Origin: Archangium sp.
GTDB lineage: Bacteria > Myxococcota > Myxococcia > Myxococcales > Myxococcaceae
Reading direction: 5' to 3'
DNA: 64,000 bases
Assembly (NCBI GenBank): GCA_022843845.1
Contig: JALHMW010000027.1
Span: 1-64,000 of the forward strand
Part shown: positions 1,429-58,797 of the stretch, in pieces
How positions within the stretch are numbered: the stretch's first letter is position 1
How the letters are laid out: the number at the start of each line of letters is the position of its first letter
Position numbers and translations under genes: made by a program
Notes under the pieces: model-generated
The model's input: the letters and a program-made list of their open reading frames with translations, nothing else
The model's database searches: none
Told to the model about the DNA's origin: nothing

Positions 1429-4400
1429 TCAGTGCCCCAGGATCTTGGTCAGACGAGCGAACGCGTCGCTCCACGTGCTCTCGTCGGTGCCGAAGTGAAT
1501 GTGTTCGAAGCCCTGGTCAGCGAGCTTCGAGGTGTCGGCCGATTCGAGCGTCGCCAGCACGTAGTGGTCGCGCCACACGAGCGGCAGGTTGTTCAGAAGC
1601 TGTGCATCGGGCCGAGGCAACTTCCGGGCGTCGGCCTGCGCAAGCCAACGGGCCAGCACGTCGTCGTTGCTCTGCGACGGCAGGGGCATCGGCGGCGTTG
1701 CTGAGGCGGGGTGCACCGTCGCCTGCGACAAGCGGAGCAGAATGTCTCGTGCCTTCGGATCTCGCCGGTCGAGGAGCTCGTGCTCCGGCTGGTTAAAGTA
1801 CGACATCAGGCAGCGGTAGCACGCGGCCACACACTCATTGCCCGGCGCATCTTCGAAGGCAGGCAGCTTCTCGGTGTCGAAGTGCAGCAGCTTGAGGGCC
1901 CGCTTCGCCACGATCGCCAGTGCGCCGGGGTCGGCAATCAATCGGCTCAACACACCAGCGCCACCCTCGGTGGCCTCGTAGAAGAGGAAGCCGAGCCGGT
2001 CTTCTTTCGTCGGCATCGGCTCGCCGAGCAGCTCGCTCTCTTCGACCTGGTACTCGGTCTGAATGCCTCGCAGCAGCGCGTGCTGCACCGTCGCCATGGT
2101 CTTCAGCTCGAGCTCTTCCTCGTGGAGACGCAGATGCAGCGCGTTCTTCCGATCCTCAACGCTGGGGACAATGAGCTGCGGCTTGACGCGCGTGTCGTCG
2201 CCTCCCGGCTCCGTGTCTTCCTTCGCCCACGTGCCGGTGAGAGGGTCGATGTAGAAGCCGTAGACCTTCTTGTGCGCCCGGCGACGGAGCCCGAGGTTGA
2301 GCCTGGTGATGGTTGCGCCGGCGCCGTAGACAAGCGTTGCCGCCGGCCCATCACTCGTACTGGCGGTCCCATCGCGGCGGTCATAGTTCGGCCCACGCTT
2401 CGCCCACTCGAAGGTCGTGCGTAGGTCAAAGCCGCGTCGCTGCCGTTCCTCGTCGTTCGCGGTGATGCGTTCGGCTGGCTTGGTCGCAACGTTCTCGATG
2501 CGGAAGATGTCGTTGACGTTCTCATCGCCCAGCGGTGCCTTGCAGTGATGGCACAGCGAAGCATCGGGACTGAAATGACCTGCGCCACATGCAGCGCAGA
2601 GCCGAGCGTGTTGCGTGGGGAGCTTCGCTTCCGAGGTGTTTCGGTCGGGCCCGAGGGAGAGCAGGGCACGCACGACGCGGTACGCACGACCCTCGTGATA
2701 GACGAGACTGTTCGGTCCAAACTCCGACAGCCCGAGGAACCGCGGGCGCTGAAGGTACGCATCTTTGCTCCGCGCCTCCGAGCCTGGGATGAACGCCATC
2801 AACGGCAGACGCGGGAAGTTGTACCCAGGGAGGAAGCCCTCGGTCGCGAGGTAGCGGTACGTGTAAAAGTCGCTCGAGTTCTTCTCTGAGCCCTGCTCGA
2901 GGAGCTTGATCTGGTTGAAGGCCTGGTTGTGGCGCGTCCGAGCCGCGTCTTTGTCGATGGGCCTTGCGGAGTGGTCATCCATCACCCTGCGGGCGTCGTC
3001 GCGCTGCTTCTCAGCGGCGAGCATGAGGTCTCGCCACCGGTTGAACGCGCGGTTGAAGGCCTCGTGGGCGCTCTTGGCGATCGCGCGCGCGAACTCTGGC
3101 GTCGACGTGAACCAGGGCGCAGCTGCAGGGGTCAGGTCACCCTCGAGCATCTCGAGCACGTGCTCGATGCGGGGAATCGCGTCGGTGGCAACCTGTGGGA
3201 GCACCAGCGCCGCCGCGAGGTCGTCGCGGAGTGGGCGGTTCGGTTGTCCCAGTTGAAGGAGCTTGGCAATTTCAGGGGAGAGGACCTGACCGCTGGAGGC
3301 GAGCCAGATGGCGTGAAGGTGACTCTCGACCAGGTCCTGGTTCGCGAGGTCGAGCACCGGCGCACGCACGTGCCCGTGCACCATGCCCCGCGGCTCTCGG
3401 AAGAAGTACTGGTCGTGAGGGCTCTGGGCTGAGCAATACGTGACGACCAACGCCGCTTGGCCGCTGCGTCCAGCTCGGCCGCTCCGCTGGGCGTAGTTCG
3501 CTGGCGTCGGCGGTACGTTGCGCAGGTACACCGTGTTGAGCGCGGAGATGTCGACGCCGAGCTCCATCGTGGGGCTGCAGAACAGGACTGGGAGGAACCG
3601 GGCCGGTTCGCCAATCTCCATGAGCCGCGCCTTGTTCTCCGCCAGCTCGCCCGTGGCCTTGTCGTCGAAGCGGAAGCGCTTCTCGCGGACGACGCGCTTC
3701 TCCTGATCGACCTGCGCCGTGTGCTCGCGTGCCTCGTAACCGAAGAGTGGGTGGCCAGGTTGGCGCAGCACCTTCGCCAAGGTCTCGTACAGCGCCTGGA
3801 AGTACGCGTTGGCGCGGGTCGTCACCGCGTTGGCCCGCTTGAAGAGCACCACGTCTTCGTTCAACCGCCAGCCCATGGAGTCTTCGAACGCGGTCGGTTC
3901 CTGGGCCACGAACCCATAGGCCCCGCCGGCGGCTTCGAGCATCCCCTTGATGAGCTCGTCGATGTCCTTGCCCTTCAGGTTTCGGACGCCGCTTTGGTCG
4001 CCCCACACTGCGTTCGACTTGAGCGTGCGCCCGAGAAGGCTGCGCGAGCCACCCCGCACCAACAGGTCCTCATCGCGCAACGTGTTGCTGCGGCGCTGCG
4101 GGGCATCCACCATCATCCATCGGGACCGGCGCGGCTTCTCGTCGAGGCTGAAGCCCCACGGCGCTCGCAGTCGGGTGTGGGAGCTACTCAGCAGTTGCTC
4201 GACCGTCGTCGACTCCAGCACGCGGCTCTTCACCGCCATGCCCTGCCGGAGCGTGTCGAAGAGAATTCGATAGGCCTTCTCGCGAACCTCGGGGCTCGCC
4301 TTCTGCAAGAGGTCCGGGGCGTTCGTGAACTCCGCTTCATCTGCGCAGAACGCCGCGAGTTCGATGTAGTCGACCTTCATGAGGCCGAGCTGCTCGAGGT

Positions 4401-30191: not shown

Positions 30192-30715
30192 CGTGCGCCC
30201 AGCACCAGGGAGAGGAGAACGTCGCCGCGGAAGCACACGCCGACACGGGCACCGCGTCGGAAGTCCGCGGAGATGCGTGCGGTGTGACCTCACAGTGCTC
30301 GAGGAGCTCGAGCTCGTCAGACCTGGTGAGGATCGCCACCGCCGCCGCGGCACGAACGGCCGGAAAGAGAGAAAAGTGGCCGTTCGCGCGAGAGACGACG
30401 CGAGGATTCGCGAGGTTGCTGGCTCGATTCGGGCCCTCGGTTCGGGTCGCGAACGGCCGCTTTCCCTGCGAACGCGCCCTTCCTCGCCCCTGGTGCACGA
30501 GTGACGGCCGAACACTTCCCCAGTCCGCCCCAGGGAGGGGGGCGGGTCCGATTTTCGTCGCGCGGTCGCCCTCCCTGACGGGTTCCCAGGCCCGACTTCG
30601 AGTGGATCAATTCCGAGAAACTGAGCAGCCCGGGATTCAGGAACGGCTCGCCGCAGAAATTGAGCAGACGCCGCTGTTCGATTTCGAGCTGCAGGTGGCT
30701 CCGCGGGGCCATCGC
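30192..30715. other. Non-coding region with long imperfect inverted repeat
   Basis: No credible gene is seen in these 524 bases; all long frames are uninterrupted only by composition. An inverted repeat of about 18 bases (16 matching; GGCCGTTCGCG at the core) has arms at 30371-30388 and 30448-30465. The stretch follows the terminase small subunit gene and precedes the 3' end of a split recombinase gene; it could hold packaging or attachment signals. Confidence 0.45.
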
Positions 30716-30865
30716 TCAGCAGATCAACGACTGGACGGAGCGCAGAAGGTCCTCGTCCGACGGGTGTGTGTAGATGGCGGTCGACAGCACCGACTTGTGG
30801 CGGGCGAAGCGCTGCGTCAGCCGGATGTCGCGGCTCGCCCGGTACACGTTCGTGCACGCGCAGTG
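30716..30865 (-). pseudogene. 3' fragment of a tyrosine recombinase gene split by the RIT element
   Basis: Read on the minus strand this piece encodes [20 protein letters not shown] and continues [20 protein letters not shown] to a stop at 30716. It contains the second catalytic His/Arg region and the Tyr nucleophile of a tyrosine recombinase. It has no start of its own. The 5' part lies at 34978-35447 on the other side of the RIT element. Removing 30866-34977 plus one copy of a flanking TG restores one open frame, reading ...[14 protein letters not shown]..., so this is an insertional disruption. Confidence 0.88.
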
Positions 30866-30893
30866 CCTCTAATGCCGAGCGCGGCATTAACGC

Positions 30894-30920
30894 CATTATG
30901 CCGACCTCCCGGTAATGCCG
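30894..30920 (+). repeat. RIT left inverted repeat (27 bp)
   Basis: The 27 bases from CATTATGCCG to GGTAATGCCG, with ACCTCCC between, are the exact reverse complement of 34953-34979. It lies 28 bases inside the inferred left boundary and 116 bases before the first recombinase start. Confidence 0.95.
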
Positions 30921-31036
30921 ACGTGGGCGACCAGGCCGACGATCTGCCGAGGGTGCCGCGCCGGTCGGATGCTTGGGCACGCGGCATAATCAGGGTGACT
31001 TCTCCGAGCGGCACTCGCGCCGCCAAAGGAGAAGCC

Positions 31037-32275
31037 ATGTTGGACGACTACTTCGATCTGCCGGAGATCCTCAGACGCCACCGCGCCGGGTTCTTTGGCG
31101 CGTACCTCGACGAGTACACCTCCATCGAGAAGGCGCAGGGCTACCCGCGCAACACGGTGCGAAATCACTGCTACGTATTTCGGATCTTCGGATGCTGGCT
31201 GGATCGCCGCGGGCTGGCGATCGCCCACCTCGACGATGACGTCATCGCTGAGTTCTGGAGGAAGCAGCGGTGCGTGCCCCGAGTACGGCACACCGGCACC
31301 AAGCCGCTGCGACGGCTTCTCGAGCACCTGCGAGGCAAGGGCGTAGTGCCTGCGCAGAAGGCCGCGGTCCGCAGCGAGGCCACCGCACTCGCGCACCGCT
31401 ACGGCGAGTACCTCCTGCGTCACAGGGCGCTCGCCGCCGACTCCGCGTCTCGTCAGATCCCGGTGATCGAGCATTTCCTTCGGCTGAGCTTTGGTCGTGG
31501 GCCGCTTCGTCTCCGGGCGCTGGGGGAGAAAGACATCACTCGCTTCGTGTTGGGGACAGCCGCTGATGTCTCGCCCCGCACCCAGCAGACGCAAATGAGC
31601 GCGCTGCGGTCCTTCTTCAGGTTCTTGCTCGAGCAAGGAGAGATCGAGTTCGACCTTGCCGGTGGCGTCCCCGCCGTCGCTGCATGGAGACACGCGGGCG
31701 TGCCGAAGTACCTCTCGCCCGACCAGGTCCAGCAGGTGCTGGCCTCCTGCGATCGGAGCACCCCGATGGGCCGACGCGACTTCGCAATGCTGTTGATGCT
31801 CGCGCGGCTCGGGCTGCGGGCCTGCGAGGTGGCGCACCTCGACCTCGATGACATTCGCTGGAGGACCAGCGAGGTCATCATCCGGGGCAAGGGGAGTTCC
31901 ATCGAGGCGCTGCCCTTGCTCGACGAAGTTGGCAAGGCGTTGGCGGCGTACATCAAGAGAGACAGGCCCAAGTGCCAGACACGCAAGGTCTTCACGAGGG
32001 TGCGCGCCCCGCTGACAGCGTTGGCCCGCAAGGGATCGGTCACGACCGTCGTGCGTGCGGCCATGTCGAGGGCCGGCCTCGACGTGCCGATTCGCGGCGC
32101 CCATGTGCTGCGCCACTCGCTCGCGACCAGCATGCTGCGTGACGGCGCGTCGATGAGCGAGATCGGCGTGGTGCTGCGTCACCGCAGCCCCGCCACGACT
32201 GAGATCTACGCGAAGGTCGACCTGACTTCACTGCGGCGGCTCGCACTGCCCTGGCCCGTTGGCGGTGCCCAATGA
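31037..32275 (+). CDS. RIT tyrosine recombinase 1
   Basis: A 412-residue tyrosine recombinase. The N-terminal half is helical and contains the SAM-like core-binding region (SALRSFFRFLLEQGEIEFD, about 188-206). The catalytic domain shows the first Arg in RLGLRACEVAHL, HVLRHSLATSML (HxxR), a His in VLRHRSPATTEIY, and the Tyr nucleophile in TEIYAKVD. The ATG at 31037 has AAGGAGAAG upstream; the same frame runs open further upstream, but that part reads as non-coding and crosses the repeats. The stop overlaps the next gene by four bases. Confidence 0.9.
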   Translation: MLDDYFDLPEILRRHRAGFFGAYLDEYTSIEKAQGYPRNTVRNHCYVFRIFGCWLDRRGLAIAHLDDDVIAEFWRKQRCVPRVRHTGTKPLRRLLEHLRGKGVVPAQKAAVRSEATALAHRYGEYLLRHRALAADSASRQIPVIEHFLRLSFGRGPLRLRALGEKDITRFVLGTAADVSPRTQQTQMSALRSFFRFLLEQGEIEFDLAGGVPAVAAWRHAGVPKYLSPDQVQQVLASCDRSTPMGRRDFAMLLMLARLGLRACEVAHLDLDDIRWRTSEVIIRGKGSSIEALPLLDEVGKALAAYIKRDRPKCQTRKVFTRVRAPLTALARKGSVTTVVRAAMSRAGLDVPIRGAHVLRHSLATSMLRDGASMSEIGVVLRHRSPATTEIYAKVDLTSLRRLALPWPVGGAQ

Positions 32276-33219
32276 GCGATCTGCAGAAGTCATTGGACGA
32301 CTACCTCAAGCTTCGTCGCACCCTCGGCTTCAAGCTCACGACCACGGAGTGGTGCCTCCGCGGGTTCCTCGACTTCCTCGACTCCAAGGGCGCGAAGCAC
32401 ATCACCACCGAGCTGGCCCTGCAGTGGGCACGAAGACCGGCCAATGGAGAGCCGTCCACGTGGGCACAGCGGCTGTCTCGCATCCGCCTGTTCGCGGCGT
32501 GGTACCGCTCTCGAGATCCGCGCACCGAGGTTCCTGCCGAGGGGTTGCTGGCAGCGTCAATCCAGCGAAAGCCGCCCTTCATCTTCAATGAGAAGCAGAT
32601 CGCCGCCCTGGTTCGAGAGGCCGAGAAGCTGCCGTGCCGCCGAGGCATGCGTGCGCGCACGTTCTCGACGATGTTCGGGCTGATCGCCGTCGCAGGTCTG
32701 CGCATCAGCGAGGCCGTCCGACTGGACCGCGCCGACCTCGACCTGGGCGAGCAGATGCTCACCATTCGAGACACGAAGTTCGGCAAGACCCGCCTGGTCC
32801 CTCTGAGCAAATCCACCATGGTCGCACTGCGCCGGTACGCGAAGCAGCGCGATCAGACGTTGCCCGGCGCGGCGACGCCTGCGTTCTTTGTCTCGGAGCG
32901 AGGCTGGCGCATCACCCACTGGGCCGCGAGATACAACTTCGCGCTGGTCTCGCGTGCCGCAGGACTCCGCGGCCCGGTGAAGGGCTACCGACATGGCCAT
33001 GGGCCCCGAGTGCACGATCTTCGGCACAGCTTCGCGGCGCGCACGATGGTCGGTTGGTACCGCGCGGGCGTCGACGTCGAGCGCGAGCTGCCCAAGCTCT
33101 CGGCCTACCTGGGGCATACGCACGTCAATGACACCTACTGGTACATCGAGGCCGTGCCCGAGTTGCTGCAACTCGCGACCGAGCGCGTGACCGACCAGCG
33201 AGCAGGAGGACGGCGATGA
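32272..33219 (+). CDS. RIT tyrosine recombinase 2
   Basis: A 315-residue tyrosine recombinase, second of the trio. It has the N-terminal core-binding helices (SLDDYLKLRRTLGFKL), the first Arg in GLRISEAVRLDRADL, HDLRHSFAARTMV (HxxR) and a terminal GHTHVNDTYWYIE block carrying the nucleophile tyrosine. ATGA overlaps at both ends couple it to its neighbours. In RIT elements the three proteins are distinct, conserved in order and thought to act together. Confidence 0.9.
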   Translation: MSDLQKSLDDYLKLRRTLGFKLTTTEWCLRGFLDFLDSKGAKHITTELALQWARRPANGEPSTWAQRLSRIRLFAAWYRSRDPRTEVPAEGLLAASIQRKPPFIFNEKQIAALVREAEKLPCRRGMRARTFSTMFGLIAVAGLRISEAVRLDRADLDLGEQMLTIRDTKFGKTRLVPLSKSTMVALRRYAKQRDQTLPGAATPAFFVSERGWRITHWAARYNFALVSRAAGLRGPVKGYRHGHGPRVHDLRHSFAARTMVGWYRAGVDVERELPKLSAYLGHTHVNDTYWYIEAVPELLQLATERVTDQRAGGRR

Positions 33220-34211
33220 GTGCCGCCACGTTCCCAGCTTTGCTCCAGTCGTTCTTCACTGAGAGGCTGCTCGCGCAACGACGCGCCAGCTCGCACACCG
33301 TCGCCAGCTACCGCGACTGCTTCCGGCTCTTGCTGGGCTTCGCCTCGAAGCGCCTGGGCAAGGAGGTCAGCGCGCTGGTTCTCGAAGAGCTCGATGCCGC
33401 CCTCATCAGCAAGTTCCTCGACCATCTCGAGCGCGAGCGCGAAAACAGCGTGCGCTCGAGAAACGTGCGGCTTGCCGCGCTCCACTCCTTCTTCCGCTAC
33501 GTCGCGATGAATGAGCCCGCGTACCTGCTCCAGTGCCAGCGCGTCCTCGCGATCCCAAACAAGCGCCACGAGCGGAAGCCGGTGGGCTTCCTCGACGAGG
33601 GCGACATTGACGCGCTGTTGAAGGCTCCCGATCTCACCACATGGATTGGTCGCCGAGATCGAGCGCTCCTGCTGGTGGCGGTGCAGACGGGCTTGCGCGT
33701 GTCGGAGCTCATCGGGCTACGTCGCGAGGACATCAGCCTCGACGCCGGTGCGCACGTCCGTTGTCGGGGCAAGGGCCGCAAGCATCGCGCGACGCCGCTG
33801 AGGAAGGACGCGGTCACCGTGTTGAAGGCGTGGCTTGCCGAAAACGACGAGCCAGCTTCAGCGCCGCTGTTTCCCAGTTCGCGCGGAGGAGTCCTCAGTC
33901 GCGACGCCGTCGAGGCCCTGGTCGCACGGCACCTCGCGATCGCCGGGGCACAGCGCCCGTCGCTCAAAGCGAAGAAGGCCACGCCGCACACCTTGCGGCA
34001 CAGCACCGCGATGGCGCTCCTGCAGCACGGCGTTGACCGTTCCGTCATCGCTCTGTGGCTCGGCCACGAGTCGGTTGAGACCACGCAGATCTACCTGCAC
34101 GCGGACATGGGCATGAAGGAGAAGGCGCTCGCGCACACCACCCCGACGAAGCAGACGCCCGCGCGGTACCGGCCTGGCGATCAGCTTCTCGCGTTCCTCG
34201 AGGGGCTGTAA
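33216..34211 (+). CDS. RIT tyrosine recombinase 3
   Basis: A 331-residue tyrosine recombinase, third of the trio and the most XerCD-like: an N-terminal SAM-like domain (SYRDCFRLLLGFASKRLG), GLRVSELIGLRREDI, a lysine beta-hairpin CRGKGRKHRATPL, HTLRHSTAMALLQHG, LGHESVETTQIYLHAD with the nucleophile Tyr. It ends 12 bases before the stop of the convergent fourth recombinase gene. Confidence 0.92.
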   Translation: MSAATFPALLQSFFTERLLAQRRASSHTVASYRDCFRLLLGFASKRLGKEVSALVLEELDAALISKFLDHLERERENSVRSRNVRLAALHSFFRYVAMNEPAYLLQCQRVLAIPNKRHERKPVGFLDEGDIDALLKAPDLTTWIGRRDRALLLVAVQTGLRVSELIGLRREDISLDAGAHVRCRGKGRKHRATPLRKDAVTVLKAWLAENDEPASAPLFPSSRGGVLSRDAVEALVARHLAIAGAQRPSLKAKKATPHTLRHSTAMALLQHGVDRSVIALWLGHESVETTQIYLHADMGMKEKALAHTTPTKQTPARYRPGDQLLAFLEGL

Positions 34212-34222
34212 CCGTGCTGCCA

Positions 34223-34837
34223 TCAGCACGGCAGTTCCTGCACGGCCCGAAGCAGCGCCTCGTCGGTGGGGTGTGTGTAGATCTGGGTGGTGATGATCGA
34301 CTTGTGGCGCGCGAAGCGCTGCGCCAGTCGGATGTCGCGCGTGCCCTCGTAGATGTTGGTGATGGCCGAGTGCCGAACGGAATGAAACGAGAAGCGTCGC
34401 TCGAAGCCGGCGCGCTCCTGCCAGAGTTGAAACGCGTGGCGGACCTGCCGCGTCGACAGCCGGTTGCCCTTTCGACTCATGAAGAGCGGCGCGTCGGCTG
34501 CCAGCGTCTCAGCCTGTTGACGCTTCCACCGGAAGTACTTCTCCAGCTTCGCCTGCACGCCAGACGACAGCATCACCTCCTGTCCCTGCGCGTCTTCGCT
34601 GCTGCGCTTGAAGACCCGCAGCCGGACGCAGCGACGCGCCTTGGCGTCGTCGGAGAGCACGTCTCCGACGTTCAGTGCCACCAACTCGTGCTCGCGCATC
34701 CCAGTGGCGAGGGCGAGCGACAGGAGCACATGGTCTCTGTACCCGTCGAAGCGCTGCCCCGTCGTGCGCAGGAGCAGGAGTTGTTCGTACCTCGTCATCG
34801 TTCGCGGCGGCTTCGTGGTGTCGGCGTACATCGTCAT
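34223..34837 (-). CDS. Short tyrosine recombinase carried inside the RIT element
   Basis: A 204-residue tyrosine recombinase consisting of little more than the catalytic domain: [16 protein letters not shown] (Arg), [12 protein letters not shown] hairpin, [16 protein letters not shown] (HxxR) and [16 protein letters not shown] with the Tyr. The N-terminal core-binding domain is absent or reduced to about 30 residues. It is intact and is a clear paralogue of the recombinase gene that the element has interrupted (30716-30865 plus 34978-35447). It may be element cargo, or a remnant of an earlier host copy captured by the element. Confidence 0.88.
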
Positions 34838-34952
34838 GGTCGTCTCCTTGTGAGACCAATGACGCTCCTTCCGCGCGCACCAGCAAGTCGTCGCGGCGCT
34901 TCGGCTTATGCCGCATGCGGCAGCGAGTTCTCCTCAGTGAACCCGCTGAACA

Positions 34953-34979
34953 CGGCATTACCGGGAGGTCGGCATAATG
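34953..34979 (-). repeat. RIT right inverted repeat (27 bp)
   Basis: These bases, CGGCATTACC through GGCATAATG, are the exact reverse complement of 30894-30920. Unlike the left copy, this one sits directly at the inferred element boundary. A further TTATGCCG-CATG-CGGCA block lies about 45 bases inside. Confidence 0.95.
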
Positions 34980-35447
34980 ACGAAGCGTGTGAAAGCTGAA
35001 GTGCCGGTCGAAGCCACAGCGCTTCTGCCAGACGCTGAAGGCTCGACGCAGCTGCCGGGTGGAGAGACGCCGACCCAGCCGGCTGACGAAGATCGGCGAA
35101 TCGGGCGTCAGGACCTCTCCTGCGTACCTCCGACTGGCGATCAGCTTCTCGAGCTTCGCGCGCACGAGGTCGGGGAGCATCACCTCCTGCGGCGCCGGGT
35201 CCTCGCTGGCCCGCTTGAACACGCGGAGTCGAACTCGGCGCCTGGCGTGACCGGCCTCGTCGAAGACGTCGCCAAGGTTGAGGGCCAGAATCTCGTGCTC
35301 TCGCAGGCCGGCTCCGAGGGCCACGCTGTAGATGACGTGGTCTCGGAAGCCGTCGAGCCGCTGCCCTGTGACCTTCAGCAGCAGGCGTTGCTCGTTCTCA
35401 GTCAGCGTGCGCGCGGGGCGGGAGATGGAGTCGGCGTAGGTCGTCAT
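34978..35447 (-). pseudogene. 5' fragment of the tyrosine recombinase gene split by the RIT element
   Basis: The minus-strand frame from ATG 35447 encodes about 155 residues of a short tyrosine recombinase ([16 protein letters not shown] with the first Arg, [13 protein letters not shown] hairpin, FSFHTLRH with the HxxR motif), then enters the right inverted repeat immediately after the catalytic RH codons. The frame continues by chance to 34509 across element DNA and the fourth recombinase gene in another frame, so the apparent 312-residue product is a chimera. The missing C-terminus with the Tyr is at 30716-30865. Confidence 0.88.

Positions 35448-35497: not shown

Positions 35498-36931
<1,434 letters not shown>

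Positions 36932-37895: not shown

Positions 37896-37905
<10 letters not shown>
37444..37905 (-). CDS. Antisense cargo: double zinc-ribbon protein
   Basis: A 153-residue minus-strand protein with two cysteine sites: YCWRCRAVIPMLEEHEWDEL in the middle and PCSSCGKPLRTP...HCAEC at the C-terminus. A helical linker with KVREEKGLSLADAREQAG joins them. It overlaps the portal start by ten bases in opposite orientation. The function is unknown; such zinc-ribbon proteins of this type occur as stand-alone bacterial genes. Its reverse orientation within the late operon marks it as an inserted accessory gene. Confidence 0.7.
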
Positions 37906-39690
<1,785 letters not shown>

Positions 39691-39704
<14 letters not shown>

Positions 39705-56360: not shown

Positions 56361-56592
56361 GCATCTCCCTCACCAACACCAGCCGGCGCTGTCTCGTCTT
56401 CGTGCTCGCCCATGACGTGTTCTGCGTCGCGAACGGTCGATGCCGGTGTGCACCCGGCGCTCGACTCGTTCCCACGTCCCTGACGCTCGCGACCGGTGTC
56501 ACCGTCGATGGGCTCGACGACGCGGTTCTCGCCCTGCCGGAGGTCATTCGAGCGATCCGAGACGGCGCGCTCGCTGCCAATCGAGGTGCTCC

Positions 56593-56596
<4 letters not shown>
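56357..56596 (+). CDS. Small phage protein preceding sheath
   Basis: A 79-residue ORF from GTG 56357, coupled to both neighbours by four-base overlaps (GTGA at the start, GTGA at the end). It has two halves: [20 protein letters not shown] and [20 protein letters not shown]. The function is unknown; it probably belongs to tail assembly. Confidence 0.6.

Positions 56597-58797
<2,201 letters not shown>

Follow-up and report, generated by a model that had tools for sequence, protein, structure and literature searches.

RIT elements (ritABC), known from Cupriavidus metallidurans CH34 and from pHG1 through the work of Van Houdt and Ricker, have three tyrosine recombinase genes that overlap one another, together with ∼28-bp inverted repeats and an overlapping palindrome (Van Houdt 2012, PMC3414803; papers are cited throughout from the portions of their text covered). 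Their RitA has two core-binding domains and their RitC an extra C-terminal helix (PMC8138268). A 2010 genome paper reported such elements within an IS66 tnpA gene and, for two species, within radC (PMC2864759), and RIT target specificity was listed as not tested in a 2023 paper on strand-biased circularizing integrative elements (SEs; PMC10214605). SEs such as Tn6283 and SE-6945 use a 6-bp spacer: one end retains the target's 6 bp, and the 6 bp that the element brought with it mark the other (PMC10214605, PMC5991714). GInts (ginABCD) combine three recombinase-type genes with cuts staggered by 6 nt and often occupy the end of ssb (PMC5385486). Here we describe an element of the RIT (recombinase-in-trio) type that has one recombinase gene beyond the trio, found at positions 30870-34977 of a 64,000-nucleotide stretch of Archangium sp. 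DNA (contig JALHMW010000027.1, positions 1 to 64,000; hereafter the window). The host genome assembly comprises 4.95 Mb in 54 contigs and is 85.8% complete. Very probably, this is a RIT transposable element with cargo that entered a recombinase gene of a prophage when tyrosine recombinases exchanged strands over a 6-bp spacer.

The three genes lie on the forward strand in the order ritA (31037-32275, 412 aa), ritB (32272-33219, 315 aa) and ritC (33216-34211, 331 aa) with 4-bp (ATGA) overlaps, which is the RIT gene layout; relatives of RitB likewise stand in trios. All three proteins match PF00589, and a perfect 27-bp inverted repeat (30894-30920, forward strand; 34953-34979, reverse strand) encloses them, in agreement with the trio and repeats reported in a preliminary description of this DNA made from the letters alone. 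The left end carries a 20-bp palindrome, TAATGCCGAGCGCGGCATTA (30870-30889), flanked on both sides by 6-bp spacers and lying outside the repeat (like features were found in 54 elements), so that the element proper runs from the palindrome to the right outer edge (30870-34977, forward strand, 4108 bp), as the empty site in relatives also indicates. An element bounded repeat to repeat (30894-34979) was dropped, since the pattern of palindrome and spacers gives other outer edges. The element is longer than the ∼3.5 kb typical of RIT elements, a usual size with no strict limit, because of a cargo gene on the reverse strand (34223-34837), which by domain scan encodes an intact 204-aa recombinase of the split gene's family. 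In RitA, the Pfam scan gave one SAM-like domain (121-201) and no match in the N-terminal part.

The element in the window differs from known RIT elements by its cargo, a fourth gene for a recombinase, and by its insertion at HxxRH in a prophage recombinase gene, which it splits. Its gene content does not match the SE set intA-tfp-intB-srap, judged with no Tfp or Srap profile; SEs, in contrast, have that set and a fixed site such as bcp, and in the text covered are reported only from Gammaproteobacteria. GInts differ in needing a fourth, non-recombinase gene, ginD, and in having poorly conserved ends. No ginD is apparent here: the opposite strand holds the fourth gene, which codes for a recombinase, and little room is left between genes and repeats, no ginD profile having been used.

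On either side of the element lie two pieces of one reverse-strand recombinase gene: a 5′ piece (34978-35447) ending in HTLRH and a 3′ piece that includes the stop codon (30716-30865). Both had been noticed in the preliminary description, together with their in-frame rejoining over one TG, and the alignments bear this out. With one TG retained, the joined flanks form a continuous frame with DNA identities of 90.4% to locus L010, 90.2% to L011, 81.8% to L009 and 72.2% to L004. The same prophage region occurs without the element in three genomes of the same genus (G001, G005 and G002). On either side of the junction, bases 30865 and 34978 of the window fall at 3980 and 3981 in G001 and at 504 and 503 in G005, and in both the flanks share just TG; G002 is continuous too, its alignments ending ∼10 bases short on either side. 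Uninterrupted relatives of the split gene therefore exist at the exact junction (L010 and L011; G001 and G005). The break had originally been placed just after HxxRH; the location at this motif stands, and the point itself is refined to the inside of the second His codon of HTLRH, with the TG belonging to a 6-bp spacer and the palindrome extending the left end. At the site, the spacer starts one base ahead of the Arg codon of HxxRH and runs through that codon into the second His codon, of which it takes the first two bases, and the target's open frame continues directly into one end of the element.

The ends and landing sites of RIT elements were then compared across the family. With an alignment of ten RitB proteins as query, the best 80 of 585 confirmed loci in species genomes and 35 loci in viral contigs, joined to plasmid and genome loci fetched earlier, made 129 loci with 126 complete trios; 22 trios of a hold-out sample bring the total to 148. 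A search of viral contigs with a single RitB sequence found no relative, nor did the 27-bp repeat have an exact match there; in the host genome, the repeat had no further copy at three or fewer mismatches beyond the two ends. RIT elements have one plain end, at which the target's open frame runs into the repeat, and another with a 20-bp palindrome whose arms resemble those of the repeat. Six bases stand at each of three junctions, namely between flank and repeat at the plain end (s1), between repeat and palindrome (s2) and between palindrome and flank (s3); before trimming, the gap was exactly 6 in 45 of 54 palindrome-end elements. The left-end search was widened to reach ends beyond cargo, which resolved two elements of the hold-out (L180 and L186).

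Target classes, assigned by motif and by eye with 40 pieces scanned against Pfam, were given to 75 loci: 26 HExxH, 22 HxxRH, 10 portal, eight IS66, three terminase-like, three methylase and one each RadC, Walker B and rve-like. The HxxRH class consists of tyrosine recombinases, the HExxH class of ArdC-type proteins and the IS66 class of transposases. An exact-anchor rule was satisfied by 27 HExxH ends at 26 loci and by 24 HxxR[HQ] ends at 19 loci (the labelled loci L048, L088 and L129 failed it and are outside the 19), which places other RIT elements at these very codons in unrelated tyrosine recombinase genes; no pair of broken recombinases in this class is >80% identical. In an automatic count, 101 elements whose repeats were 20 bp or longer yielded 110 plain ends with enough flank, and among the 72 with an open frame there were 12 HxxR[HQ] and 19 HExxH ends, as against 315 (0.05%) and 34 (0.005%) in a background of 624,889 open-frame flank positions. 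Pfam profiles gave consistent stop positions: 15 of 17 upstream pieces of the recombinase class match PF00589, 14 of these 15 ending at position 131-135 of 172 and one at 116, and all six HExxH pieces scanned are ArdC-type, ending at 52-53 of 126 in the metallopeptidase model. Three IS66 pieces end at 259 of 284, the remaining five IS66 loci being assigned by eye. RadC is split at HNHPSG (76 of 121), an AAA ATPase at LLID (91 of 130) and the methylase of L144 where the domain match ends; Pfam gave no match for the terminase-like site (DPSGGDY) or the rve-like one (DVFSR), and an amidoligase gene split in L149 carries no class label. Across the 24 HxxRH ends, which were chosen by motif, the bases CA, T, G and CA are near-invariant (24, 23, 24 and 24 of 24). 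These comparisons support HxxRH codons as a probable target of some RIT lineages, as the preliminary description had suggested for the motif in general, with other lineages apparently using other conserved motifs.

Some victims belong to the RIT family itself. Matches to any Rit protein were found for 16 of the 24 HxxRH pieces; five are Rit proteins at 48-69% identity (RitB-like in L049, L058, L074 and L086, RitC-like in L190), and the other matches fall below 40%. In pHG1, a RIT element lies between two near-identical RitC halves (599/603 nt), each ending at HTLRH. An upstream gene half at both ends, with no palindrome, was seen in L059, L068, L079 and L081 (HxxRH), in L096 (HExxH) and in pHG1 (L048, 6620-6900 and 9997-10237). 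Such elements may have arisen when two RIT insertions recombined with each other, and L084, with palindrome-like sequence at both ends, may be the reciprocal product. In IMG/VR viral contigs, RIT-like trios were observed to split phage portal or terminase-like genes (L150-L154, L157, L159-L166, L168 and L170).

The spacers may hold a further record of the target. s1 equals s3 in 30 of 53 elements, compared with 18 of 2756 cross-element pairs, five palindrome calls judged wrong by eye being excluded. s2 is internal to the element and outside the present target, and reads Arg-His in eight of nine HxxRH elements compared with none of 18 HExxH elements (p = 4e-6; palindromes with a gap of exactly 6 only, the apparently mis-anchored L066 s3, L088 s1, L132 s3, L087 and L093 being retained). 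It ends in CA in 25 of the 27 HxxRH and HExxH elements, as opposed to none of 19 in other classes. In the window, s1 (34978-34983, TCGTCA on the reverse strand) is the target's own Arg codon plus CA, with identical bases in the unbroken L010 and L011; s2 (30890-30895, forward strand) is ACGCCA and s3 (30864-30869, reverse strand) GAGGCA. These hold three different Arg codons, each before His, which is most simply explained if s2 and s3 derive from earlier HxxRH sites. As in SEs, s1 of the window equals the empty site and s3 differs, a likeness in working and not in membership; in general, the RIT spacer pattern is reminiscent of SEs and GInts, which exchange 6 bp.

Target class follows RIT phylogeny. 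In FastTree trees of RitA, RitB and RitC (75, 74 and 75 rows respectively), the nine target classes need eight changes, the minimum possible, whereas shuffled labels needed 41.0, 40.7 and 41.1 on average and none of 200 shuffles was as low; near-copies inflate these tests (L159/L163, L165/L168 and L150/L153 were left unmerged), and L048 is represented by its invading trio. The HExxH and portal classes each form one side of a branch, and HxxRH is spread over several. The landing rule also held in a new sample of 20 plasmid loci and four genome regions gathered after the test was fixed, the plasmids being hand-picked from two lists and not random. This hold-out gave 22 trios, 13 of them with a resolved plain end: nine HExxH, one HxxRH (L190), two IS66 and one without class (L193). 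Among the nine trios without a resolved plain end, L177, L182 and L188 show the palindrome end only.

A second element with the same cargo, 96.6% identical (3946/4084), was found in another genus of the same family (G023), alone on a 4085-base contig that ends at the repeats. The four bases past its left repeat and the repeat's CA make TCGGCA, which fits an Arg-His target and is too short to count. A circular form of this contig is unsupported, as the ends have no overlap; whole contigs that consist of one RIT element and end at or near its repeats were also observed for L072, L090, L104, L120 and L027, as expected of multicopy elements or circles. The empty sites and the near-identical copy in another genus together imply past movement of the element. 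Between the window and G023, the ratio of nonsynonymous to synonymous change (dN/dS) is 0.067 for the cargo (three nonsynonymous, 13 synonymous codons), 0.10 for ritC, 0.19 for ritB and 0.27 for ritA; all four genes look to be kept by selection, on numbers that are small.

That the element holds an intact paralogue of the gene it broke had been recognized from the outset, and the cargo indeed shares 59% protein identity with the first piece of the split gene over 159 residues; the DNA is 72% identical over 152 nt ungapped and ∼67% over 466 nt. From ritC to the right repeat there are 771 bases in the window and 766 in G023, compared with a median of 99 in 100 elements. Cargo in RIT elements is not rare, and it is varied: L089, L096, L111, L118, L121, L180, L184 and L186 hold additional genes between ritA and the left repeat, among them one for a carbon-nitrogen hydrolase in L186 and one for an NlpC/P60 protein in L184. 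A recombinase of the target's own family was met as cargo in the window and G023 pair only, in a sample whose cargo was not fully surveyed. This homologue may make up for the split gene. Recoding of the cargo to escape insertion is unsupported: its own site has the bases that are near-invariant in the HxxRH ends. The cargo protein has four relatives in viral contigs, and the genomes G052, G022, G015 and G028 each have two or three unbroken genes of the small recombinase family that includes cargo and target.

We propose that the Rit recombinases would recognize the DNA of the motif codons and that the element would move as a circular or figure-eight form, bringing along 6 bp of the site that it left last. 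When it inserts, the 6 bp of the target would stay next to the plain end, and those brought along would finish beyond the palindrome. Because the carried 6-mer would stem from the same motif in another gene, it would code the same Arg-His, so that departure need not alter the protein, and the gene might then work after excision. The 'safe site' of the preliminary description is nevertheless not borne out, as the gene is split here; we infer only that its function might be spared by excision or by the cargo. Inteins and homing endonucleases also invade the most conserved codons of a gene, but inteins splice out as product, whereas a RIT element leaves the gene split. Unlike RIT elements, those of the Tn916 type use one integrase with an excisionase and have low target specificity. 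They do carry coupling sequences from their last site, as proposed here for RIT; such sequences are also mentioned in PMC5991714.

More broadly, and tentatively, RIT elements could be active-site homing transposons, each lineage being keyed to the DNA of one invariant motif, with a 6-bp crossover within its codons that codes the same residues. The motifs would lie mostly in genes borne by other mobile elements. On these terms, HExxH lineages may come from HxxRH ones, the His-x3-His codon spacing being kept while the gene family changed.

Several observations weigh against our interpretation. Past movement is implied by sequence comparison, and no movement was observed. In G023, there is no close relative of the split gene besides the cargo, only a weak 28% match, which bears on the site of that copy. 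In the window, s1 and s3 differ, so that there is no simple duplication, and s2 equals s1 in eight of 27 elements (L103, L109 and L132; L089, L101, L119, L176 and L183), which are thus no independent witnesses. Portal insertions lie ∼27 residues past the matched Pfam domain (two genes scanned) and have no known catalytic motif, and two methylase matches end 115 (L158) and 65 (L167) residues before the junction. The HxxRH class was met once in the hold-out, and the two IS66 labels there were given afterwards, by eye. Finally, the labelled loci cover only 75 of 148 trios, and ∼20 elements with readable ends fit no class (for example L046, L052, L056, L084, L099, L112, L124, L140-L142, L148, L161 and L193).

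Among other explanations, one that we hold possible, if short of probable, is that the recombinases read a plain DNA word made of arms and spacer, conserved codons being merely the commonest recurring words in mobile genes and neither their protein meaning nor the preservation of residues having a part. Recombinases do see DNA, the near-invariant CA, T, G and CA point the same way (partly because the ends were chosen by motif), and classes without a known catalytic motif exist, as in portal genes. The arms, however, differ considerably among targets of one class, so that such a word would have to be loose. We consider it unlikely that the interruption is regulated and reversible, the broken gene being meant for rebuilding in development or prophage induction. 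It is true that no target bases are lost and that spacers within a class code the same residues; yet this assembly holds only the two repeat ends and no excised form, the insertions occur across a wide range of genes and hosts, and with SEs and some GInts no empty site is produced (PMC10214605, PMC5385486).

The relatedness of cargo and split gene given above could also suggest that these two recombined and that the RIT genes entered through the homology. Such gene capture is very improbable: the junctions lie at RIT repeats and spacers and not within homologous stretches, many RIT elements without such cargo sit at the same codons, and the cargo is also present in the G023 copy. Random landing, with HxxRH a coincidence, would suit the fact that a single copy has a known site in this genus. 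The automatic motif count against flanking DNA already disfavours chance, and the PF00589 stop positions, the tree signal, the exact-anchor ends and the s2 codons leave it hardly credible.

The element and the gene it splits are surrounded by a tailed-phage prophage, recognized with PHROGs by a terminase (35498-36928), a portal (37896-39701) and a tail sheath gene (56440-58794). Downstream of the split gene, we also noted a 16-bp inverted repeat (94%) at 30373-30388 and 30448-30463.

RIT elements and their insertions in radC and IS66 genes were already known; the motif rule is the new part, within the literature covered. In the RIT literature searched, to which Ricker 2013 and Nielsen 2017 do not belong, we found neither this rule, nor 6-bp spacers at all junctions, nor the inheritance of target class. 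The finding gives RIT elements a simple, testable insertion rule and could account for the split recombinase, ArdC and IS66 genes that are found next to recombinase trios. As one family with differing targets, RIT elements form a natural panel for DNA choice by tyrosine recombinases, and their 6-bp spacers may record an element's past sites. If RIT elements do home to active-site codons, such an element could insert into any member of a huge protein family, even one borne by another RIT element, and its departure could be harmless.

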